Positions 30,137 to 52,800 of a DNA stretch of 64,000 nt are shown piece by piece (positions within the stretch are counted from its first letter, which is position 1; every line of letters begins with the position of its first letter). The translations under genes and the position numbers were made by a program. Below the pieces are notes generated by a model that did not search any database, was not told the origin of the DNA, and worked only from the letters and a program-made list of their open reading frames with translations. Location: the NCBI RefSeq assembly GCF_025602895.1, contig NW_026516217.1:682001-746000 (forward strand), written 5' to 3'. This stretch comes from Polychytrium aggregatum (taxonomy: Eukaryota; Chytridiomycota; Chytridiomycetes; Polychytriales).

Positions 30137-30865
30137 CTACAGCGGGGCTGCATCTGCCGCGACATTCGAGCTCGCATCTTGGTGCGGTCGTGCATCAAGA
30201 TCCTTGATGATGTCGTGCACATCTAGCAACTGAATATCGCCATTGATGTGGACTGCATGGATGCCGACTTTGCGAGCGCCTTGGACGTGCTGGATGCTGT
30301 CGTCGAAAAATACGGTCTCCTCCGGAGCGAGCGAGCCCAGTGGACATGCTTCCAGGACGTGATGGAAGGTCTCCTCGTCGGGCTTGCGCATTCCGATCTT
30401 GTGGGAGTAGAAGATGCGCTCAAAGAGCGAGATCCATGTCGGGAGGCCGCCCTCGACGTCCCGCTCGATGATACGGTCGACTTCCTTCTCGTGCACTTCG
30501 TTGATGTTGGAGAGCAAGAAAATGCGATATCCGAGTCCTTGGAGTCGCTGCAGGAAGCGGATGTGGGCCATCGGGATATCCAACAGCATGGCGTTCCAGG
30601 CTGCATCGAGTGCCGAGTCCGAAGCCGATCCCAGCTGCTTCGGAAAGATCGCACGAAGATAGGCATGGATGGTTTGGCCGTCCTCCGAGCCGATGTTGTG
30701 CTGGCCCCGCTCAAAGGCGTTCATGAACCCGGACTGTCGGTGCTGCGAGAATATTTGGTTGAAGTCGTCGATGCCAAAGCTGTCCTTGAAGGCTTTGGAT
30801 GTCAGGTTGTAGTCGAGGTTGAGGATGACCCCGCCGAGGTCGAAGATCACGTTGCGGATGACCAT
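30137..30865 (-). CDS. HAD-superfamily hydrolase (subfamily IA), possibly acquired from bacteria
   Basis: An intronless 242-residue protein with all HAD motifs: motif I VIFDLGGVILNLDY (the second catalytic Asp is replaced by Gly, as in the YihX-like branch), motif II FLLSNINEVH, a motif III lysine near YSHKIGMRKPDEETF, and motif IV ETVFFDDSIQHVQGARKVGI. AWNAMLLDIPMAHIRFLQRL lies in the cap. The pattern 'IRN-IFDLGGVILNLDY', 'AWNAMLLDIP', 'LLSN.NE.H' and 'SHKIGMRKPD' is what I associate with sugar-phosphatase-like HAD proteins of Bacteroidota; the substrate is unknown. The start MVIRNVIF is the natural start of this fold, although the frame is open further upstream. It lies 376 bp downstream of TARBP1, on the same strand. 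Confidence 0.85.
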   Translation of the reverse strand: MVIRNVIFDLGGVILNLDYNLTSKAFKDSFGIDDFNQIFSQHRQSGFMNAFERGQHNIGSEDGQTIHAYLRAIFPKQLGSASDSALDAAWNAMLLDIPMAHIRFLQRLQGLGYRIFLLSNINEVHEKEVDRIIERDVEGGLPTWISLFERIFYSHKIGMRKPDEETFHHVLEACPLGSLAPEETVFFDDSIQHVQGARKVGIHAVHINGDIQLLDVHDIIKDLDARPHQDASSNVAADAAPL

Positions 30866-31240
30866 GGTGCTGTTCCGGCCAGATGACGATGAGCAAAGGA
30901 GCCCGGGGATGATCCGACAGCGACGCCGGATCGAGACGGCGACAGCAATCCGCACACCACAGCGAGCGCAGAAAGCGGTCCAAGCAAATGGCTGCCATGG
31001 CCGCCATGGCCCGCTCGTTCGTCCTCCAGCAGATGCAGCTCTGTGCAGCACAGCATGGCCGTGACGAGCCCATGCGAGGCAGATGATTGGAGGCACCCAG
31101 GCTTCGGCATGCCGATCGAATGAGATGTATATTCGCTCACCCGAGAGCACTTGTACTTCTGAGTACTTGCGGCAGCACCGACTCTCTTCCAACCCTCCTT
31201 CCCCTCCCCCTCCCCTCCCTGAGTACCCAGCGACCCTTGG

Positions 31241-34200
31241 CTAGCCCAGTGCAATTTGCTTGGTGTACTCCCACACAATCAGAGCGCCGCTGACGTGGAC
31301 ATTGAGCGATCTGGACCGGACAGATACGACAAGCGTTAGGAGCGGGGACTGATAACAGCCCAGAGCGCCTCTGCACTCAGACAGCGTCAGAGTCTCGCTC
31401 ATACCTAATCACTCCATACTGCGGGATCTCCAGAATGTGGTCGAGAAGGGGGAGAAGGTTTGGTGTAATGCCTTGCCGCTCCTTACCTGCGTGGATGCGC
31501 ACCCAAATCGAAAAGCATCAGTTGCGACGTTCTCTGGCACAAGGTCATCATCCCAAATGGCGATGGCAATGGTCCGGGGCGTTGTGCTGTTCTTACCGAG
31601 AACCAGAACACTCTTTTTGGGAAAGGCGAAACGCTCGATTGAGACGCTGTTGGTGGCTTGCTCGATGCCAAGCAGCGAGTAGCCCTCCTCCTTCTTCTTG
31701 AGCAGATACTCCGTCAGGCCACTTTCCTTGACCTGGGTCGGGCGAGCCAACAGTGCGAGTAAGATTCCTGCCTATTCCGGCGACGATCACTTGCGGGACG
31801 CTTTTCAGCGGCAACACATACCTCGAGCATCGGCATCCATCGGTCGGCCGTCACCGCCAGTCCTTGGAATATTGGGTCGTCCTTGATCTGAGCGTCGACA
31901 CAAGCGGATCGTTGCTCAGCCGCGACACAGTCGCAATCCGGTCGTCGCCCTGGGAGAACCGTGGTCTGATCCTCGGTGCATTGGCTGCGTAGCTTACCTT
32001 CAAGTTGTCAACGACCAGCAACTCTGCATTGAAAATCTCACAGGTTCTGCACAGTCCACCCAAGTTGGGCGCTTTGGAGATCAAGCTGGCAACCACAATC
32101 AACGGATGGCGGATCTTCTGCATTGCGGGGACATTGCTCATGTCAGCGCTTTCGGGTCCATCCTGCTCACGCCAAATGACTCGCGCATGTGGGAACAGAG
32201 GCCTCCTTCCGGCCCAAACTGTGCATCATGGCCAACCTTTTGTCGATCTTCTCGCTCTCTAGACAAGTCGATGTCGGTCTCCATCATTGCTTCCCATGGA
32301 ACAATCTTTCTTTGGATAGGGCCGTCGATCTCGGCTACACTGTCGTCAGCATGGCCATCGGATCGGCGTTTGTTCTCATATGCCTCACCGTAGCTGGCGA
32401 GGTAGTGTGAATGCATTTTAGCTTGTCATTCCACAGAACTTCCCCAGTCGGATCGAGTCATGCTACTCACATTGCAGCTAGGTCTTGATTCCACCTCTCC
32501 CGAGCGAACCCGGGAGAAGCCAGCGGAAGTGAGCGGCCATCGGCTGGGTTGACGCGCGCGAAGGCGAGCTGATGCATTAAAGTCGTTCGGCCCCGAGGTG
32601 TTGGCGTTGATGACAGGGACGAGGGTCGAATCAGCAATGAATACGACCTCAAAACCGGCATCCGACCCAACACGCCTAGAGCTCTATGTATCCGAAAGCA
32701 GCGGCGATGAAAAGCGCCGTGCGGCGATCGCTAGTTCACCAAAGTTGATGCAGACACAGCTGTGGGTATCCAGTCGAGACACACCATCCATGTCCCTCGC
32801 TGATAGAATGCCTGCTTACTGTACCCACCGCAGCGACTCGCTCCTCCTCGACAATGTCCTGCACAATCATTGATCCCCGGAAGATAAACTCGAGCGTAAC
32901 GTCCTTGAGCGGGTCGAACCCGCCTCCCAAGATATACGACTTGTCGCACTTCTCGCGGTACTTGATACAGTCGGCGTTGTCGGTAATGAACTTTGCCATG
33001 TGCGTCCCAAACATCTGTCCTTCGACGACTTCACGGAGATGCTCGTGCGACGAGCAATACGACCACGCCCGGAAGAGGGCATACTGGCTGAACAGCCGAA
33101 TCGTAAAGTGGTGGCTGGTCGTCCATGGCGATGCAAGCACAAATATCTGAAATAGCGGTACGAGCAGCAGACCCTCATCAGCATGAGGGTTTCGGATGCG
33201 TGGGATAGCTGCAGTCAATACTGACCTTTTCGAAATAGCTCCTCTGGAAGGCCGGGTCCAGGTGATCGCCGACATGGACAGCAACGGTGAGGAGAGAGCT
33301 CACCAGTTGGGCCCGAGCGGATACATTGGCGAGCATGCTGGTTCCGCATCAGAGGTTAGATCCATAAGCCGGCCTCGCAGCTTCAAACTAGCTCCGCGAA
33401 GGAGGCACAAGAGGAGACCGACGGGTTGGTGGACAAGTGCTCGTGGATATAGCGCCAGTCTCGCCGGAAGATGGGGGGAGGGTGTAGACACAAACACTTA
33501 CGTCCAGGCTTGCTCCATGGTCGACGGATAGGCGATGGCGATGCGCATCACCGCCCACTCGATGTAGAAACGGGTCGACACAATGTGCTCTCTCTCCATG
33601 CATTTCAGAAGCAGCCCCATATACCCCGGGGCCTCGCTCTCTTCCACAAAATGCAGGATAACGTGCACAGCAGTCCACAGGCGGACCTACAGATCGTGAG
33701 ATGGAGTCGCATCAGTTGGGCATCATCGAATGGGGTTGTCGAAGCTGCGATCAATCGTCTGGCCATGCATCACATCTGCAGGCTTGATCTCAAGCCGCGT
33801 TGCCCACCTGCTTCTTGTGGTTGAAAGTGTCCATGTGCCTGGCTTCAAACTCCCCACAGACATGTCGCTCCAGCAGTGCCCGGAGGAGCTTCAGAGCCAC
33901 TTGGGCCTCATGTGGGTTGCTGCGGTCCAGGCGCGACAACAAGTCATTCATCTCGACACGGACAATGTAGTCGTTGAGCGAAAAGTTCCAACCAGCCGTC
34001 CTGACCAATTTGGAATAGCAGTCACGGATGTGATCAGAAACGATGCAGACTCGCTCCTCACAAGGGAGAGCGCGTTGCAGCAGATCGGCACCGACTGTTC
34101 TTGGCAGACAAAATGAATAGCAGTTGACAGGCGTGCTCTACCCGCTCATCTCGTCCAGCTCCTCCTTGGCGTGCGTTTCTTGGTTCAGCTTGAGGGCGAT

Positions 34201-37200
34201 GGCTGCATCCAGTTTGTGCTCATCTTTGTCCTTGTCTCTTGCAGGTCCATAGAGAAGTAGGTCCAACACCTCACCCAAAAGCTCCTCGAGCAAACAGAGT
34301 TTGGCACCAGACCGCCGCGACTGCTCGATCGACCGTAGTAGCTGGTGATACAGCAGTGTCGAAAACTTTGGGGCGATGCCTTGTCGAATCTCGCTCCATT
34401 GCAGTAGCACGCGAACAACCTGCATATGCGACCGCAAGAGAAAGCCTGATCAATTCGGTGATATCGTGGGACGATCTATAGATCGTAGCAACAAGAATCG
34501 TGTCTCAACCACCCTACCCTACCTTCTTGACGGGGTTGCCCTCTCCATAGAGACGCTTGTCGTTCAGCACACTGGGTGAGAAAAGCAATTGCAACAGCTG
34601 GTCGAGCAATGCCAAGAAAAATCGCGAATTTGACCAGTTCTCCTCGAGGATGGCGATTGTGTAGGAAACGATGTGATCGATCTGACTCAACACCAGTCGG
34701 TCAGTAACGAGAGTGCCCTCCATCAATTGGCATTTGATGCTTGAGCTGGAAATCAAGCCATGTGCCCCCCTGCCACTAACCTCTTCGACACTCTTGTCTT
34801 CCTGCAAATCGATCGACAGTCGAATGACTTCCAGGAGAGTCGGTGCCGTGACTTCTGTGGCATTCTCCAGCTCGTCAATCAACTGGCCGATAACACGACG
34901 AGGCAACAGAGAGGACATGTACTGTCCAACCAAGAGGAAGTTCAGATGCATCAGTCATGCTCCAGCCGCGCCCCAGCCGCCTCGGCGCCATCAACACACC
35001 CTGCAGATGCTTACTTTGATCTGCAGCTCAACGAGAGCGCGGGCAGCGCCAAACTGCGCGACCGTAAAGGTCTGCTGGATGCTGTTCCAATTCTTTTGTC
35101 TAAGACGGAGGATGCGAATGCAAAAGCAACCATCAGCATCTGCAAGGCGACGCAACAATGCCATTCCGCAGTGGTTCCAAGGGTAATTACGATATATCCG
35201 CATGCTCTTAATACAGAAATGCAGAAGCAGACATACCGGTCCTCGATGTCATTAAAGATCTTTATCATCTTGGTTTCGGTCAAGAACAACTGGATGTCGG
35301 GCAGACTCGCAAGATCCGGCCTGATCCCATGGCGAAGCAGTGTATCTGCCGCGACAGTGAACAGGTTCAAAGCCGCGTACTTGGCCCATTGTCTTGCAGC
35401 CGTTGTCTGGGCTGGGCGATGCGATATGGATGAGAACCCATGTTCCCACACACTCGCCAATCGCACCTTGTGACGAAAGAAATGCAATACTCACGCTCGC
35501 ATGCCAGAATCTGGAGATTGTTGGTGCTAGTGGCGACCCATTTGATGGCATAGCCTGCAGCATCAGCTTCGCATCGGTCGCTTCCAGGCTGGAGCCACGA
35601 GAGACTCAGGATTCGCTTCAAAAATTGCGCTTGCACTACGATCATATCCATGTCTGGAAGATGAAGGGGTGCCGGCCACGAGCACGATTCAATTCACCGA
35701 GCACTCCTACTACAGGAGCATGGGATTATGCATACTCGTGATCAGCGCTGAATGCAACAGAATGCCTGAGCTCACCTCGGTGCTGGTCGTCTACCGTGCA
35801 AAGCTCGGCCTCGAAGTACACCGTAGCGGATTGGAGGACCTCGTGAAAGGTTTCAAAGAGCAAGAAGATTGCTGAAGGGCTCGGCTGTGAGAATAGTCGT
35901 GTGGTACTGCGCGCCGGTACATGGTGTTGTGCATCGCGACTGGCTACTTACGAAATCCGACCTGAAGACCCTCGAGACCCTTGCAGACCTCCTCCATAAG
36001 GATGATGCGTTGGTGCCGAGCAATTCGGGGTGTATAAGGGTGGTGCAGCGTCGATAGTCCGAGAAGCAGTGGGTCAAGCACATGCCGAATCGCCGCGGCA
36101 GACTCTTGCATGGCACTGCCATCTACCAAGAACACAATCATGCGACTGATTCGGCAGGCCATTTCCTGGATGTTTTCTTGAGAAGGCACTGGGATTCAAC
36201 AGCAAACAGTATGGCAGGATCAAAGGATTAGACAACACGAGTGCTGGGCGCCATAGCCGTAACCCAGAACCAGCGCGCAAGATCACGCAATATGATGTGG
36301 ACCAACAACCTACCATCCGCGTTGCTTTGCAATGACAAAAACGATCGCACACTGCTACAGAGCCCCTGAATGAGCCATGTACCCTGCTCTTGGTTCTTTG
36401 TGATATTGGATCGGCAAGCACCATTAGCTATCCGCACATGCATCACAGGCACACTTCAAGGGAGCCGGCTGGTTCTTACTGATGCATCGATCGAGTGAAG
36501 CCACGCTTTGATGGACAAGAACTCTGGGGAACTAAACCCGACGGCATCTTCGTTCATCACGCTCGAAATGACTCTGCGAAGCAGTGATATGTGAGTTACC
36601 CAAGCAAAACGACAGTGGGAGATGGTGCAACGTCGTCAAGTCGAATCACCTCGCGAGATGCTCGTAGGTTGTCTGGGTCGAGTCGGTTAGCCGAGCTATA
36701 GCTGCTATCTCAAGGCGACGAAGGTATTTGCGCGAGTTGAGTTTACTGGACACCAGCAAACAACGATGCAGCCCGAGCAGAGCATGGGAGGAGCACGAGT
36801 GGTAATTTCATCAGTATACAATGCTGTCTGATTGATTGCGCATCACGCATCAAAGAGCGCCTCATATGTTGCGATGACGACCAACCTCCAGACGTTGCTG
36901 GCCTTTTCGCTATCCAGAACATTCATGAGAAGCTGGAGATCCTTTGTAGCCCATGGACGGCACATTTCCGAGATCCGATGCGCCTCGACGGCGTCCATGA
37001 TGCCTTGCAATATAAACAGCGCAGCAAACGGGCAGTTGAATCGAGGAAGGTTGGCGATGGCCATGGAGAGGAGCCGGCCCTGGAAACACATCACGTATCA
37101 GCGGCTGATCACAATACGGCGGACCGACTCGCGATCCGGCCTTACCTGATCGCTGACCGAATACCCGCTCAGGAGGCGTCCAATGAACTCCTTGAGCTTC

Positions 37201-44479: not shown

Positions 44480-47400
44480 ATGCTCACAGATCAAGATATC
44501 GAGGACGCTCTTGCGTTTGCGGCCGTGCTTGCCGGGGATGCCCCAGTCTCGGATCTTTCGTCCCTTCCATGGGCCCGCGGCAGATGGAGCGGTAGGTCGA
44601 CCTTGGATGACAGCCCAACACAGATCACTGCCCTGATCGACCCGGGCCATCCAGACCAGACTCTGTCTATACCGCCTCTCACCGACAGCAACCCTTGCTT
44701 TGCTTGGCCCCGAGCCGCTCAGATCTTATCCTGGATGATTATATCTGTGCCATCCAGCACACAATCCAAGATGCCATCGGATGCTACAAAGTAAAGCTTG
44801 GATCGGCTCAAGCGAGCTCCATATCATGCAACCTCTGTCGGGCAGAATGGGGCGGAATCGAGCCAATGCCGGCTGGACATGCATACCGCCTGTCTGTATT
44901 GCTCCTGCCGTCTTGGGCGCCGCCTTCTATCGCAACCGCTTGCGCTAACGAGACTATGGCTGTGCCGCCGGTGACTGCTGTTCCCCCATCCTGGCATACT
45001 CGGGCATATCCGCCGCCTGCCCCTCTTTCCAGGAATACGGTTTGGACCGATGGTGCACCCAAAGGCTTCCCGATATGCTCAAGAATATTGAATCGATTCT
45101 CGGTGCTGCTCTGAATCTCCCTGGAGAAATCAACCACGACTGGATCCTGGACCAGCTGAGAGGCGAAGCCATCTATGAGCTGTGTCCGTTCCTCCCGCGG
45201 GTGCTTGAGCGCTTGCTGTCTCGTCACGTCACATATTACCAGCGGACCGATCGTCCCGAATATCGATATGGTATGGTATATACTGACAGGCTGGCCTTGC
45301 ATGAGCCGTTGTGGAGCAACAAGCCACCGAATGCATGTTCGATACTGCTCGGGGCTGACTAGGCGACCTGTTCGCCTTTTGATCTGCTCATGCGTCGCCG
45401 CCTGCATGGTCGCCAGTTTCGAATGTCTGCGGCGATCTCAACCGCCTTGGCCTTGGTCTCGTTTTGACGGATCCGGTGGCAACGGTCCTGTTCAAGTCAA
45501 TCGATTCCAAGCTGTCACGGAGCTGCAAGGCCGTCTTCCACAAACGCACACTCGGCCCATGCCTACGATGGATCGACGATTATCTGATCCCCTGGCTTTG
45601 CATTGCTTTTGGATGCGATGGTGAGTATTGCTCTGGCGCATTATGATCCTGCTTCAAGCGGTGGCAGACCGAGGTAAATCGGACCCACTTGACATTACCG
45701 GGAGTGTGTCGGACTCTGATTCAGGCGGTGCTCCTAATTCCATGTGGACAATCCAGACTCGAGTCAAGACGATTTCATCTATCCATGGCGGACGCGGTTG
45801 ATTCGACACTTTCATCGGTGCTTCTTTGGTCTGAGGTAAGTCTCTGCTTCTGCTTGACTCGGCTGGCTTGGATTGGCGGCTTGAGCATCAGCATCAGCAT
45901 CAGCATCAGCATCAGCATCAGCATCAGCATCAGCATCAGCATCAGCATCAGCATCAGCATCAGCATCAGCATCAGCATCAGCATCAGCATCAGCATCAGC
46001 AACATTCTCACCCATGTCATCATCGATAGGGTCAGCGAGCTCTTTGAAATCATTGTCGAGTTTCCGTACTCGCGATGTGCGCTGTTGGATCTCTTGGTAT
46101 GTACAAGCTGCCATTGAGTGCATTTCATCGTCAGACAGCAGCAATGGCAACTCACTAACACTCACTTCCCACACAGGAGTCGCTGAAGGTGACGGATCGC
46201 TCCGAGCTCCTAGTCAGCTCGCTATCAAAATCGTAAGCCGCCGATACACCCCAGCGCAACGATCGATCGTTCAGCATCCATTTCCTCTCCCCAATGACTA
46301 TGTCACAAGTGCTGGATATTCACAATCTTCATCTATCCTTGTCGGCCCTGGCTCGACGGCTTTGAAGCATCGGCAAGCGCTTGCTTCAACCGGGTGCAAC
46401 CACCGCAACGATTGTGGATTTCTACATCGCACTACAGAAGAGCGTACTGCTCCTCGATCCAGTCGGTGCGATGACGCAGACTCTAGGGGACCCCATCAAG
46501 CAGTACCTCAGGTGCGCCTATTGTGCGCTACCCTCTCCCGCTCAGTAGCCCGCTCCCGTTCGCTAGCCCGAAAGCCCGTGGTGATTTTTGATTGGCTTCA
46601 GAACAGTAGCAAGGATGGACCAGGTCCTGGAAGCTCTGCGAGTAGCGCGGATCAGTTGTCTGACCATGGATCTGTGTTCATTCCCAGACAGCGAAGTGAC
46701 ACCGTCAAATGCATCATATCAAAGCTGATCGATAGCCCGGGGAGCGAAGGTGGACAACACGACGACGGGAACAACGACTTGGCTGTCGAATCTGAAGGTT
46801 TGAATCGGCTCCGATCTGGCATTCGTGCATTGGCTTGCCGACCACGCCCTGGAGATTGCCTCGCACCAGGAAGACGAATATCGATTGCGGTGCACTAATA
46901 ATTGTTGATCAAATCGACCCTCCCCTCCCCAGAAGGTCCCCTTCCAGAATCGATCGTCCGAAATCTGCTTAGCATCTACGATACTTACGATGTGTTTGTC
47001 AAAGAGTTTCAAAGTTCTCTCGCGAGCCGGCTGTGCCGTTTGCCCAATTACGACACCGTTCTCGAGGTAGGTTGGGTCGCGTTGCTAGATGCCTGGCTTG
47101 CCATCAAGGTTGTTCTGACGTTTCTGGGCAAATCAGATGGCCCAAGTTGAGCACCTCAAGACTCGCATCGACGAATCAAACCTACAAAACTGCGAAGTGA
47201 TGCTGCGAGACATTTTCGACTCCAAGAGGATCGACAGCCTCATTCACGAAACCGGTTTCTTCAAGGTATTTTTGCCCAGGGATAGATGGTGATGGGCAGC
47301 TCTGATGCTAAACGACCGAGCGGTGGATGGCACTTTGCTGACGATTGAACGCCTAGCAGGTCCCACTCCACAGCAGGATTCTGTCTCGGCAGTACTGGCC

Positions 47401-48410
47401 CCCTTTGGAACAGGAGATGTTCAAGCTACCTGATGCGGTGCAGAGGTACGGACAGTCTTGAGCTGCACTGCATCACTGCATCACTGCGTCACTGCATCAC
47501 TGCATCACTGCATCACTGCATCACTGCGTCACTGCGTCGATCGATAAGCACGTGTTGTTGATGATGCTCCGTCAAGTAAATGACTACGTCTTGTTCAATG
47601 CCCTCTGCGACCATGCTCAAAGTCAAATGGAGGAGTACCAGAAGATGTATGGGGACATCAAACAGGGACGAGCACTCAAATGGATACCGTCCGCTGGAAC
47701 AGTCTCGTTGACACTCGATTTGAAGGATCGCCGGCTCACTCTAGACGTGACACCTTTCCAGGCATCGATCATCTCGTGCTTTGAAAACCAAGGTTGGCTT
47801 GCAGCAAGATCGCTCTGCACGCCTACAATCTCGCCATTGGCCTGGACAACATTAACGATGGCTTGTGGTTTCCCCGTAGCGGAATGGACCCTTGCAAAGC
47901 TCGCGGCCCATCTTGAAACTTCGGATAGCACCCTCAAGAAGAGGATGGCATATTGGATAAAGATGAATGTCATATCAGAGCCGGCCGACGGCGTGTATAG
48001 ACTGATCGAGGAGTTGGATCCTCTTGCTCACGGTAAACTGGCCGCCAGCAACATCCAATTGTGCTTGCTCTCTTCGGCTGGGAATCAACTGATAATGGCT
48101 GCTTGTCTTTGCCACCCACATTGGCACTGAATTGTGTACAGATGCAGAGGTGAAATCCGCGTTTGTCCCTGCCAACGACGCTCATGGGAGGCCGGCCCAA
48201 CGGACCACGGCCGAGCCCGAAGAAATGTGGGCATTCCATATTCAAACAATCATGGGGCTGTTCCCGGCGCTTACGGCTGAGGAGCTGCTGCAGAAGATGC
48301 AAATGATGTCATTTAATGGAAATGTGGATAACGTCAAGGCGCTGCTCCAAGTCCTCGTTGTTGACGGAAAGGTTAAAGCCTGCGGGCAGACATATTCGCT
48401 CAAGCAGTAG
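44480..48410 (+). CDS. APC2: Anaphase-promoting complex subunit 2 (cullin-like APC2)
   Basis: A multi-exon gene. The likely start MLTDQDIEDALAFAAVLAGD is at 44480 (exon 44480-44591, phase 1 to an exon starting at 44660). Recognisable parts: IVRNLLSIYDTYDVFVKEFQ, LASRLCRLPNYDTVLE, HLKTRIDESNLQNCEVMLRD and IFDSKRI (human APC2 has 'CEVMLKDMADSRRI'), SRQYWPPLEQEMFKLPDAVQ, LKWIPSAGTVSLTLDLKDRR, and VTPFQASIISCFENQ. The winged-helix end is KLAAHLETSDSTLKKRMAYW, and the C-terminal APC2 domain is EEMWAFHIQTIMGLFPALTA followed by GKVKACGQTYSLKQ. APC2 with APC11 forms the catalytic core of the APC/C ubiquitin ligase. Several introns are repeat-bearing (45884-46001, 47463-47540). Exon limits in the N-terminal half are approximate. 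Confidence 0.85.
45884..46001. repeat. AGCATC hexanucleotide repeat in APC2 intron
   Basis: About 19-20 perfect AGCATC units directly follow an exon ending in a canonical donor (GGTCTGAG then GTAAGT at about 45836). The array is uninterrupted, which suggests recent expansion or strong length instability. Confidence 0.95.
47463..47540. repeat. ACTGCATC octanucleotide repeat in APC2 intron
   Basis: About nine units of CACTGCRT lie between the exon ending KLPDAVQ and the next coding exon. Few units vary (GCATC versus GCGTC). Confidence 0.9.
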
Positions 48411-48654
48411 CGGAACTTGGAGGGCATGGTGATTCCAAAGTCGCATGTCCGGATTGTATTTTCGTAACCATCCGACTAACAAAATATTATAAGAGCAAAG
48501 CAAACACGGGATGGCCCATGTGCAATGGGCATATAGGGTACAGATGCAACAAATGCTCAATGGAATGGACGGAAGGGGGCAGGGGGCAGGAGTCGAGTGA
48601 GGGCAGGGTCGATGGAAGACATTCTCAGTGTATGGGATGTACACTTTATTCAGA

Positions 48655-48667
48655 AAAAAACGGGACA
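48655..48667 (+). repeat. Left terminal inverted repeat (13 bp)
   Basis: AAAAAACGGGACA, perfect inverted match to 49726-49738. It is preceded by one further A. Inward of the TIR the two ends diverge after one or two bases. Confidence 0.75.
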
Positions 48668-48739
48668 ACATAGCCGTTTCCATGAACATGTAGTATGTGC
48701 TGTGCTTGCGTCAAGCAAAGCCACAAGAAATAAAACAGA

Positions 48740-49126
48740 TCACTTTGGCAGCCTCCGAGTGAAGACCGCCGGTCGCTCTCCGATCTCCACAATCGACCTG
48801 CATACTGTGATCATGTTGCGCGCCGCATTGACGTCGCGATTCCACACTGTCCGGCAGCTGGGATTCTTGCAGCTCCTGACAAAGTGGGAATTCGCAACAC
48901 TGGGCGCATCGAGTCCTTCCAACCGAACTGGCTCCAGGCACTTGGAGCACACTTGCGAGGTGTTGAACTCGTTCGTCGAGACTACCTTGACGCTTCCATG
49001 ATGGTGATTGGGACGGCGTCGGTGGTGCTCGAATTGCTCAAAGTACCGAGCAAACCGCTGCCTCCGAGGGCTGGATGCATAGCCCTTGGTACATGCGATG
49101 CAGCACACCAGAGTGGTTGATGGCAA
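48740..49126 (-). pseudogene. C-terminal fragment of a Fanzor/TnpB-type RNA-guided nuclease
   Basis: Meaningful from about 49087 (KGYASSPRRQRFARYFEQFE). Then VKVVSTNEFNTSQVCSKC starts the zinc ribbon (CSKC, later CKNPSC), followed by RTVWNRDVNAARNM, the RuvC-III motif with its catalytic Asp. The protein ends naturally at RRLPK-stop (48740). This 'TSQ.C..C ... C....C ... NRD.NAARN' signature is diagnostic of OrfB/TnpB and eukaryotic Fanzor proteins. RuvC-I, RuvC-II and the RNA-binding N-terminus are absent, so the fragment cannot act as a nuclease. Fanzors are known from chytrids, and Fanzor genes carried by Tc1/mariner elements have been described. Same strand and frame direction as the transposase part. 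Confidence 0.85.
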
Positions 49127-49667
49127 ATGCAGCCGAGACAGACTTGTGTTTCATGTGATTGCGCTGGCGAAGCGGAGCACCCTTCGGCGAGTATCCGTAA
49201 AGAGGGAAAATGGATTTCCTGATCCCTGTCTCATCGACAAAAACGAATCGCCGCGGGTCGATGGAGCGGACCTGGTCCCTGAACTGTGCCACTCGCTCAT
49301 CCAGTCGCTTGGACTTGTAGAGGTGTGTTGCCCTCTTGTGTGAGAGACCTGCTCGCTGGATGGCAGTGTGGCAGAGTGAGAGTGATACTTTCCTCTGGAG
49401 GATGGACTCGAGCTTGCATCGCAACACAGGACCAGTCTGGAACGGGTCCTGTTCAATCAGGGTGCGAATGACTGGACATGCCTGCTCGAAGAAAGTGGAT
49501 CTGCGAGCTGGGACCCGGGATGGGTCATCCAGCTTGCATCCTCGGTGCCATCGATGGATGGTGCTCTTGGATACACTGAATATGGAGGCGACCTTACGCA
49601 GGCTATGGATGAGGGCGTAGCATCGCAATGCGGCGGTGCGAAAGTCGGATGTGTGGCGAATGGTCAT
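49038..49667 (-). pseudogene. Truncated IS630/Tc1-mariner-like transposase (HTH plus first part of DDE domain)
   Basis: An intact 5' end encodes a helix-turn-helix (ALIHSLRKVASIFSVSKSTI, then HRWHRG), a linker with LSLCHTAIQRAGLSHKRATH, and the beginning of the DDE_3-type catalytic domain, FVFVDETGIRKSIFPLYGYS and PKGAPLRQR, containing the first catalytic Asp-Glu pair (VDE). After GVLHRMYQG (near 49087) homology stops. The remaining residues up to the stop at 49038 are out-of-frame translation of the Fanzor-like segment. The second catalytic Asp and the final Asp/Glu are missing, so it cannot transpose by itself, although the TIR-binding domain may be intact. Start: first Met of the frame, 59 bp inside the right TIR. 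Confidence 0.85.
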
Positions 49668-49725
49668 GGCCAGCGCGCGATAACATTGGGTAACAAAATA
49701 TTCGATGAATGGTCAAAAACCCGGG

Positions 49726-49738
49726 TGTCCCGTTTTTT
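49726..49738 (-). repeat. Right terminal inverted repeat (13 bp)
   Basis: TGTCCCGTTTTTT, the reverse complement of the left TIR. The base just outside completes a TA dinucleotide as read on the minus strand, the usual target of Tc1/mariner-type elements. Confidence 0.75.
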
Positions 49739-49814
49739 ATTGGATTGCCTGTAAGGTGGGGCCAAGATGAAGGGAGCGGGCGCGGCGACAGCCACAGAAA
49801 TGCTATGGTTGTCT

Positions 49815-52800
49815 CTATGATTTCTCGGGAATGAGCACGGCTGCTCCGACGGGACATTCCGCGGTAGGTGAGGCCCGTCGCGGCACCAATTCATCGGTCG
49901 ATAGCATCTCCTGGGGACGGTGGATCATTTTGGCTTGACTTGCAAGGGTGTGAGCGCTTGCGAGTCGCCTGAAAACATCCTCTTCGGGGTTGGTTGGAGT
50001 TCGTCGCAGTGCCGGGCGCGTTGGGGAGAGGTTGTTGGAGGAGCGGTACTGCTCAGCATCTGGAAACGGGCGGGTGATAGTCCCCTGGGGACGATTGCTG
50101 GCCACGGCCTCTTCGTCTTCGCCGCTGGTATCGCTCGCATAACCGATTCGGGGTGAGGGGGGCCCAGCAGCCTGAGGGATGCGGCTCCTGCGCGGAAGGC
50201 TGAGTGCCCGGCTTGGGGGCAAGTCGTCACGAGATGAATGCTTGAAACTCTGTCGGAGAGGCGACGGCGGGCGAGGGGCAGAGGCATCGCTGGTGCTGAC
50301 AAGGGAATCGCCGCTGGCGTTGAGGCTGTGGGTGCGAGGCACATCGCTCCAGGCCTGTCTCCTGCTGCCGCTGCCTTTCTCCGCCTGTTCCTCGGGTTCA
50401 TACGTGAATGACGATGACCGTGGTAGCCGATCCGCCCCGGCGTTCTGCAATACGTAGAGCTTGCCGGAGCTGCGCTTCGACAGCCTCATCTTGTCCTTGA
50501 TGATCCGTAGAACTTCCAGATCCTGATCGGTGAGCTCGTTCTCGTCCGCAACTTCCTCTATCGGTTGGTCAGTCTCGGTCGACACGGAGATTCGCGGAGA
50601 CTGCCGTGATTCCTGCAAGGCTTTCTCGACCGCCACCTGGACAGCTTTCTTCTGGCGAACGAGATCCTCCTCTTGTACTTTTTGGATACGCCCCTCATAG
50701 TCGACTGCGGCCTGGCGGGCGGCATGCTGGATGGTGTCGATCGACGACTTGAGCTCGGCAATAATCCGATCGCGCTCGTTCAGCGCATACTCCTCGTCTC
50801 GCACAAACATCCGCAACTGGATGATATCTTCGAGATAGAGTTCGAGGATTAAGCTGAGCTCTTCACTTTCCAGCGAATGCAAGAAGTTGACAATGTTGTC
50901 CCAGATCTGATCCGTGTCCAGGGGCAAAGATGCCGGTGGCGCATTGGACTGGCTCTTCTCGGTGTCTATTTCCGGCAGTAGTATGATAGAAGAGAATGGC
51001 GTCGGTCAGCAGTCCAAGTCACCAGACGCTCGCCTCGTTCTTTGGCGCGCTCTTGCTCTCCAGCATATCCTGGCACACATCTGTCGGTACTAACCTTGCG
51101 TGCGGCAACGGTTGACATCCTCCATGAACAGGGTCTGGTGCCTGGTTTGATCGACACCATCTGCTTCGGGCGCTGCGCTCCCGAGTTCGTTGCCGCGATC
51201 GAGGGCTGACGGTACCATCGGAGACGACGGGCGCCGCATTGGCCGTTGCCACACCAGGCGCCGTTCCTCGGGGATGCTTTCTTCGTCCTGGGCTGAGCTG
51301 TCTGCGGGGGCACTGGGCTTGGACTGAACGCCACGCTCCTCTTCGACAGCGAGGATCCTCGAGTTGACCATCGCGATTTCGTGATCCAGAACCCAGAGTC
51401 GATCATCCATATACTGTGGCTTTTGAGGATCGAGCGGCAGTCCTGTTGCCTCGGAATCGGCCAAGACCACGCGCTCTCGCTCAGCCAGCAGCTCGCGTTG
51501 CTCGCCGAGCAGACGGTCGCGCTTCTCGTAGAGTTCGTCGAGGGCCATTGCAGCGCGGCGCGCAGAGATGGCGCATGCCATTTCCTGCTCAAGCAGCTGC
51601 TTCTTGAAGCGGGCACGGATAGCCAGCGGCGGCATGTTTTCGTATTCGTCAAGGTCGCCATTGAGTGGATTCGACAGCCGTCCGGTGAGGTCTTCGCCAC
51701 TCTGGTCGTCGAACCAGCCTTGTCGGAGACGACTTGAAGCGGATCCTTGGCGTGAGCCCGGCCGACTCTCGGTGCGTTTCAGCATCGTCAAGACCTTTTT
51801 CAGCTTGCTCTTTGAGTGCCGAATTTCTTCAGATCTCCGGCGGAGGATGATGGTCTGCAACAAGCATGCCAGAGGACGGGCGAGGGCGGGTTGGGGTCAG
51901 TCACCGTTGCCGTGGCTATGGCTATGGCTATGGCTGTGGCGAGTGCTACCAGGGCAGTTCGGTTCGATGGTTGCTTCGGCACTGGGAGTGGCACTGCGCT
52001 CGACGCCCACCTGCATCTCGTGGCTCTTCTCAAGTTCCTGGAGTTTCTTTTTCATCTCGAGGGTTTCGACCTCTCGTCGCTGGAGTTCCTTCTGGGTTTC
52101 AATGTGCAGAGCCTTGTTCTTATCGGCCTCGCGCTTGAGATCACGCATGATCTGCGCCTTTTCGGCTGGAGGTGGCCAGTAGGCAAGAGTAAGTCGAATG
52201 CATTGGCAGTCACAAGCGACAACGGCAGAACTCTTGGTAGCGAAAGCTGCCCCGGGTGGCGTCAATGCCCGAGCAGACACTGGCGCCACAGCGACTCACC
52301 TTTCAGACTTTCGATCGTTTCCCTCAGACCCTTTGTGAGCCCTTCGCTGCGAGATTTCGATGAGCTTTGCAGCCGTCCGTTGTCATTGAGCTTCTTTTTG
52401 TATTCTTGGATCTCCTGCTCCAGTTTGCGCTTCTGCTCCTCATATCGAGCTTTGACTGCCGCCGCGCCCCGGTCCCGTTCCCCTACCGGCGTCTTAGTAT
52501 CCCCGCGAATGCGGCCGAGCGCTTCATCCCTCTCCTGCTGAACTTGGATAAGCTGCGACTGCAAATTGGTCAACTTTTGCTCGTAAGCATCTTTCATGGC
52601 CGCGTAGTCGTTCTGTCTGGCCTGAAGTCGAGCAACGAGTTTCTCGTGCTCGATGATTTCGCTCTGGATCTTGTGAATGAGGGTATACATGTCTTGGGAA
52701 TGATCGGGCTCTTGGGCAGCTGGCGAGGGCTCTGCAGCGGCGCCATCGGCCTGGGGAAGACTTGGCCCCAGGCCGCTCTTGCGCGACGGCCCTGTCTTTT

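Follow-up and report, generated by a model that had tools for sequence, protein, structure and literature searches.

A deletion derivative of a Fanzor1-carrying Tc1/mariner-type transposon in Polychytrium aggregatum and an oriented TTA rule at its insertion sites

Introduction

Inverted repeats in a 64-kb window of the Polychytrium aggregatum genome (the whole stretch of DNA analysed here) enclose the 5' half of a transposase and the 3' end of a TnpB/Fanzor protein, and the locus raises the question of how the two came to lie together and what the Fanzor does for the element. Fanzors are relatives of CRISPR nucleases. MITE-like internal-deletion derivatives of Tc1/mariner elements keep their ends, lose their coding capacity and are multiplied in trans. 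The genome described here amounts to a natural experiment, holding many near-identical Fanzor transposons, derivatives with a candidate guide end, and a second Fanzor behind a near-identical transposase (one copy read), and the layout of these copies can serve as a natural test of a Fanzor's use to its transposon.

Results and discussion

Boundaries and contents of the element

Comparison of flanks with other copies places the true outer ends beyond the repeats first noticed: homology stops outside TA|CACTTTATTCAG...CGGGACA and TGTCCCG...TTGCCTG|TA, giving a whole element of 1,110 bp that is read on the minus strand. The perfect 13-bp inverted repeats around 1,084 bp of the preliminary description are real, being the only two matches in the window at up to one mismatch (shuffle expectation 0.04; two matches reached in 0 of 100 shuffles), and each forms the inner half of a 26-bp end. 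The Fanzor-side end reads CACTTTATTCAGAAAAAAACGGGACA and the transposase-side end CAGGCAATCCAATAAAAAACGGGACA. The features are as follows.

48642-49751, minus strand: whole element, internal-deletion derivative of a Tc1/mariner-type transposon carrying Fanzor1 (limits set by where homology to other derivatives and to 19 parents stops)
48640-48641, no strand: TA target duplication, Fanzor side (TA in 31 of 32 bounded copies)
49752-49753, no strand: TA target duplication, transposase side, forming TTA on the minus strand together with 49754 (TTA at 61 of 61 independent sites)
48642-48667, plus strand: Fanzor-side end, 26 bp, its inner 13 bp the same as in the other end (276 genome matches of TA plus end at up to 3 mismatches; control 0)
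49726-49751, minus strand: transposase-side end, 26 bp (one match in the window; 394 genome matches of a longer form at up to 3 mismatches; control 0)
48642-48739, minus strand: 3' noncoding region past the Fanzor stop, candidate guide-RNA (reRNA) scaffold (low diversity in 21 full-length copies; predicted hairpin)
48743-49088, minus strand: Fanzor C-terminal fragment, 115 codons, with Ealt, zinc finger and RuvC-III Asp; stop at 48740-48742 (PF07282 match; alignment to full-length copies)
49089-49667, minus strand: transposase 5' fragment, 193 codons, with the HTH and the first of the catalytic Asp residues; the deletion removed the second Asp and the Glu (DDE_3 match; alignment)
49088/49089, minus strand: deletion junction, identical in the 16 derivative copies read save one base that is C or T, and with indels in L016 (16 genome matches of the junction pattern)
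48620-48639, minus strand: predicted guide of this copy, the flank directly past the TA on the Fanzor side (by analogy with Fanzor1 reRNAs as a passage of PMC10711439 describes them)

Reading inward from the transposase end, the element holds 193 transposase codons, the junction, the last 115 Fanzor codons, a stop and 98 nt of noncoding sequence. Both coding pieces lie on the minus strand, and so in one orientation as the preliminary description had it; the join it placed near 49087 exists, its exact position being 49088/49089, and comparison with the parents reveals no clear microhomology there. Because the halves are in different frames, a fusion protein is not made, and since the transposase piece lacks the second Asp and the Glu and the Fanzor piece lacks RuvC-I, neither piece should work. 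In the profile searches that had been called for, the Fanzor fragment matches PF07282 (Cas12f1-like_TNB) above the cut-off (9.3e-11), while the transposase fragment, as a fragment, falls under the curated cut-off of Pfam DDE_3 (6e-4), which a full-length copy matches at 3.5e-22. TA stands on both sides in all bounded copies scored except L040, which has TT (the end of L050 was moved one base by hand before scoring). The element has the ends of coding parents present in this genome and no working frame of its own, which makes it a non-autonomous (MITE-like) derivative.

Copies and parents

The genome searched comprises 64.7 Mb in 418 contigs and scoring was confined to the best 40 candidates, so the copy counts are lower bounds. 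Among these, at least 16 copies align across at least 1,045 bp of the element and at least 24 further loci carry the transposase half only. The junction pattern has 16 matches in the genome, 15 of them among the 16 aligned copies and one extra at C1:722220; together with L016, this makes at least 17 derivative copies, occupying about 13 sites, several having common flanks.

The idea of an internal deletion in a larger transposon with transposase and Fanzor in tandem is borne out by the parents. Twenty of the 24 transposase-half loci were fetched, and 19 of them are 3,606-3,757 bp long, bounded on both sides by the same ends, and contain transposase followed by Fanzor sequence on one strand; the twentieth, L041, is broken. 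Two further full-length copies measure 3,634 bp (L052) and 3,476 bp (L053). The proposed search for copies of 2.5-5 kb sharing these ends thus recovered relatives, with both halves in one element, alongside the 17 derivatives. A Fanzor frame of more than 600 aa is present in 17 of the 22 loci with a transposase half read, and 48 of 56 scored Fanzor matches, all at 93% identity or more, have no internal stop. Nineteen transposase frames were read, eight of which are 310 aa long with a common C-terminus; the 310-aa transposase and a Fanzor frame of at least 788 aa occur together in five copies (L040, L042, L047, L049 and L050), L042 and L047 occupying one common site. The element is therefore confirmed as a non-autonomous member of an abundant family that encodes a 310-aa Tc1/mariner-type transposase and a ~790-aa Fanzor1. 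Transposase-side ends outnumber Fanzor-side ends genome-wide (394 and 276, reversed-pattern controls 0), a surplus that fits the second Fanzor family described below, whose end is similar. Shorter derivatives fall into three deletion types of 283, ~310 and ~384 bp (six loci read), so that four deletion types are seen in all. No relatives were found in viral contigs and phages. In a subgroup of full-length copies (L031, L035 and L036) the transposase is cut to 268 aa by a ~130-bp deletion and the Fanzor frame is open.

The Fanzor1 and transposase proteins

For the full-length ~790-aa Fanzor, Pfam gives only the TnpB/Cas12f zinc-finger domain PF07282 (1.7e-9). Residues were mapped by alignment of ten copies and the second family, with numbering in L034, and comprise D547-P-G (547-549), E723, T726 and S727, C730/C733/C756/C761, and R767 and D768 in L034 and most aligned copies, L042 having Arg at position 730. 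The Ealt Glu723 stands six residues ahead of C730xxC733, and FGNAS occurs ~50 residues upstream. The Fanzor1 motif as given in a section of Bao & Jurka 2013 (PMC3627910), D-X(125,275)-[TS][TS]-XX-C4 zinc finger-X(5,50)-RD, is found in L034 and most aligned copies, as is the fingerprint stated in part of Yoon et al. (PMC10711439), DPG at RuvC-I and a Glu six residues before the zinc finger, with a DPG-Glu gap of ~173 residues versus 120-160 in those authors' strict expression. A profile search of the PDB to E 5 returned two matches only, both Fanzor1: SpuFz1 of Spizellomyces punctatus (8gkh; E=0.002) and, without significance, GtFz1 of Guillardia theta (9cer; E=0.59). The Ealt region aligns with both, and only the C-terminal part aligns by sequence; single-sequence search gave non-significant matches to SpuFz1 (0.18) and LaTranC (0.41). 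Judged from these sequence features, the family's protein is a Fanzor1. Its frames are under purifying selection, with a dN/dS of 0.32 across 14 copies with frames longer than 780 aa.

In the full-length transposase the catalytic Asp, Asp and Glu are visible, with 34 residues between the second Asp and the Glu. The DDE transposase, the terminal inverted repeats and the TA duplication identify the transposon as Tc1/mariner (IS630-Tc1-mariner).

An oriented TTA at the insertion sites

Readable transposase-side flanks of this type were available for 68 copies, and merging those with the same last 14 flank bases (7 dropped) left 61 sites. Excluded from the site counts were L011, L013 and L016 (transposase end cut), L041 (no bounds) and L014, whose transposase end belongs to a neighbouring relic and which is counted on the contrast side instead. 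All 61 independent sites read TTA|element in a single orientation; 26 of them are copies bounded by this family's Fanzor-side end, and the other 35 come from the genome-wide matches of the transposase-side end and were read at that end alone. In the window, T precedes TA at 372 of 2,700 positions on both strands, which puts the chance of the pattern at ~3e-53 for 61 sites and ~4e-23 for 26. The base ahead of TTA is A or T at 48 of the 61 sites (p = 5e-7), and no constraint is seen on the base that follows TA at the Fanzor side. As TA is palindromic, a one-sided T means that the elements are fixed in orientation relative to TTA.

Support for the T before TA being host or target sequence comes from L004, where the element lies inside a relic reading GCGTTTA|element|TATGG and an uninserted relative on contig C63 has GCGTTTCTGG at that place. 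We considered whether the fixed T might be part of the element itself, which is unlikely, as this uninserted relative has the T and the second family has other bases there. The sibling loci L004 (contig C399) and L014 (C384) have one Fanzor-side flank in common. At its transposase side, L014 has the end of the host relic instead of its own, as might result if two similar ends had recombined or the DNA between them had been lost.

A second Fanzor behind a similar transposase

A second Fanzor family, ~65% identical over 130 compared residues, occupies at least 150 places among the matches listed, with open frames of up to 1,011 aa (for example at L039:4001-4523 and C63:30803-34587). The element from C63:30803 to ~34587, read in part (30803-32080 and 34440-34660), is a chimera: over its first 1,012 bp it matches the first family at 97% identity, its 310-aa transposase likewise being 97% identical; homology then ends and the other Fanzor follows.

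Seven independent transposase ends could be tied to the second Fanzor by strand and spacing, and four of them read TTA, the other three being ATA, GTA and TGA; adding four unlinked CAGCC ends and the relic at L004 gives TTA at 6 of 12. By Fisher's test the linked 4 of 7 differ from 61 of 61 (7e-4) and from 26 of 26 (6e-3), and the wider 6 of 12 from 61 of 61 (5e-6) and from the 26 checked sites (3e-4), a contrast limited to seven linked sites and to one second-family copy in which the transposase was read. The ends of the contrast set differ too, six being CAGCC and one CAGTC against mostly CAGGC in the first family. How strictly TTA is kept thus seems to depend on which Fanzor half is present and not on the transposase, as would be expected were TTA the Fanzor's target motif; the difference in strictness of the base before the insertion site points at the Fanzor and not the transposase, and we infer that TTA would be the motif. 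A second-family Fanzor at C2:784954-785337 has an 812-aa frame, and the 701 bp around its predicted transposase-side end (L112) contain no match to that end; this family may have another architecture.

Different forms of the element at one site

Eighteen loci were queried with their joined flanks in a search that scores the best candidates. Siblings turned up for 10 of them, every one occupied by an element; these siblings may be haplotypes or duplications. This lack of empty sites fits homing and equally fits old insertions. Eight derivative sites have a sibling, and in five of these the sibling holds another form: derivative and full-length copies share a site in L005/L052, L007/L046 and L008/L053, a derivative and a 310 bp form in L009/L051, and in L006/C375 the difference was judged by spacing only. 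At the other three all forms are derivatives (L002/L003, L004/L014 and L011/L013/L016). Of 35 copies, only L005 and L052 start with GAGGTAATCC, which has two end variants, meaning that this site kept its outer end while the inside changed. Outside the junction there is no near-fixed difference between derivatives and full-length copies, and of 703 pairs of sites compared within the 5' part, 256 show all four gametes (L014 and L015 left out). The form differences between siblings, the shared end variants and the polymorphisms common to the forms indicate ectopic gene conversion, which argues that the derivative did not spread by simple transposition alone, transposition having first placed the elements.

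A candidate guide-RNA end

Fanzor1 reRNAs contain the end repeat and target duplication and reach ~15 nt into the flank, according to a passage of PMC10711439. The preliminary description suggested that the sequence next to the Fanzor 3' end may hold a guide-RNA region, an idea that fits the near-invariance of the 3' noncoding stretch. Diversity in 21 full-length copies is 0.0048 over the first 40 nt past the Fanzor stop and 0.019 over the whole 98 nt, compared with 0.085 at Fanzor fourfold sites and 0.036 at those in the final 300 bp of the Fanzor; when 40 fourfold sites were drawn at a time, no draw out of 10,000 gave a value as low as that of the first 40 nt. The noncoding sequence before the transposase is also low (0.021), and low diversity near the ends could partly reflect conversion among copies. 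Six shorter derivatives retain 165-214 nt at the Fanzor side and down to 97 nt at the other.

Predicted folds are suggestive at most, with z-scores of -1.0 to -2.5 for four end pieces and -0.8 to -3.1 for the hairpin alone. RNAalifold on nine end sequences across families returned no structure, and in a hairpin defined by hand one compensatory pair appears in 4 sequences, its covariation score being equalled by 74 of 500 shuffles. An Rfam scan of 48500-49900 gave only Xist_exon4 (E 0.28; score 18.6, gathering score 100), which we regard as a chance match. The Fanzor-side end contains AATAAA, which may be a poly(A) signal; that it could act as a guide-capture device is a side idea only, the motif being absent from the second-family ends read.

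Origin, spread and a putative role for the Fanzor

We propose that a single internal deletion of ~2.6 kb would have arisen once, and that the derivative would then have reached its ~13 sites by cut-and-paste mobilisation in trans together with ectopic gene conversion of full-length copies in place. It encodes no working protein and retains its two ends together with the 3' part of the Fanzor unit. A transcript running out of the Fanzor-side end would have as its scaffold the 3' noncoding stretch, the end repeat and the TA, and as its guide the flank beyond; Fanzor from other copies would load this RNA and cut only element-free sites with TTA just before the guide match, and repair templated by an occupied copy would then bring the element back or duplicate it, so that the derivative would act as a stand-alone guide unit. 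This model, with its mobilisation in trans, gene conversion, putative guide RNA and cutting of empty TTA sites, we regard as somewhat probable. That the family is a split homing system, in which full-length copies would give transposase and Fanzor, and short derivatives would be guide-RNA units recording their own site at which the Fanzor cuts empty TTA sites, is a tentative suggestion that we rate as rather unlikely. Were homing at work, only TTA-first insertions would persist, empty alleles would vanish, breaks and repair would shuffle full-length and deleted forms, and a swap of the Fanzor half with the transposase kept would alter the site rule.

Three other accounts have to be weighed against the proposed model. 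The out-of-frame halves are all that speaks for a chance junction or an assembly artefact joining unrelated repeats, an account we reject and to which we give practically no credence, given the same junction in 17 copies on many contigs with TA on both sides, and parents with both halves in one element. Spread solely by transposition, with the same-site pairs arising from independent insertions into one TA, would predict the TTA/TA frame that the bounded copies do show; it is nonetheless very improbable, as five of the eight sibling-bearing derivative sites hold another form, the two end variants of L005 and L052 are absent from the other 33 of 35 copies, and polymorphisms are shared across forms.

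A stronger contender is an ordinary non-autonomous mariner derivative in which the Fanzor is a passenger, TTA reflects the transposase's own choice of target and the Fanzor-side end is retained simply as transposase-binding DNA. The transposase alone could explain mobility and could itself favour TTA in a fixed orientation, TTA is common in the second family too (4 of 7), and only four types of deletion were seen. Set against this, a one-sided fixed T beside a palindromic TA needs an oriented target complex, in the second family ATA, GTA and TGA also occur, beside a 97%-identical transposase (one copy read), the Fanzor frames are under purifying selection, and at least 165 nt are kept on the Fanzor side versus 97 nt on the other. 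We consider the passenger account plausible, if short of probable.

Relation to known systems

Mariner-borne Fanzor1 with TA duplications, and 3' halves exchanged behind one and the same transposase, were already reported in 2013, in sections of Bao & Jurka (PMC3627910) describing PGv-1 and PUl-1. Like the present family, these combine a mariner-type transposase and Fanzor1 in one element with TIRs and TA duplications, and related elements there share the transposase half and have differing 3' halves, as here. Unlike the PGv-1 group, described in that part of the paper as single-copy, one genome here has hundreds of ends and many open Fanzor frames, and unlike PGv-1 and PUl-1 it has several deletion derivatives and the one-sided TTA rule. 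This family is a new, unusually rich case of mariner-borne Fanzor1, a type described in 2013. The derivatives read here also differ from MITE-like Tc1/mariner derivatives in retaining the candidate guide-RNA end of the Fanzor unit.

Among the published Fanzor1 motifs are CATA and TTAA; in a portion of PMC11423790, cleavage tests assign TTAA to GtFz1, and one sentence reverses the order. The GtFz1 motif resembles the TTA suggested here. A model of gene drive by TnpB of IS200/605 in plasmids, in which the RNA-guided nuclease removes element-free copies of the site, is presented in part of PMC11870625; that system is bacterial with a different transposase, and the likeness is one of analogy only.

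Surroundings of the copies

In the window, tandem minisatellite-like repeats at 47349-47561 (frames HHCITASLRHCITASL) lie directly before a cullin-domain frame (Pfam Cullin 1.4e-8), and the last open frame of this cullin-side region stops ~230 bp left of the element. Elsewhere, about five copies of a ~71-bp tandem repeat adjoin derivative L015 (C122:20383-20757). Older relic Fanzor-side ends were seen at L092:1-97, L093, L038:33-181 and about a dozen other places; at L092/L093 a derivative lies tail to tail with such a relic end, the terminal TA being common to both.
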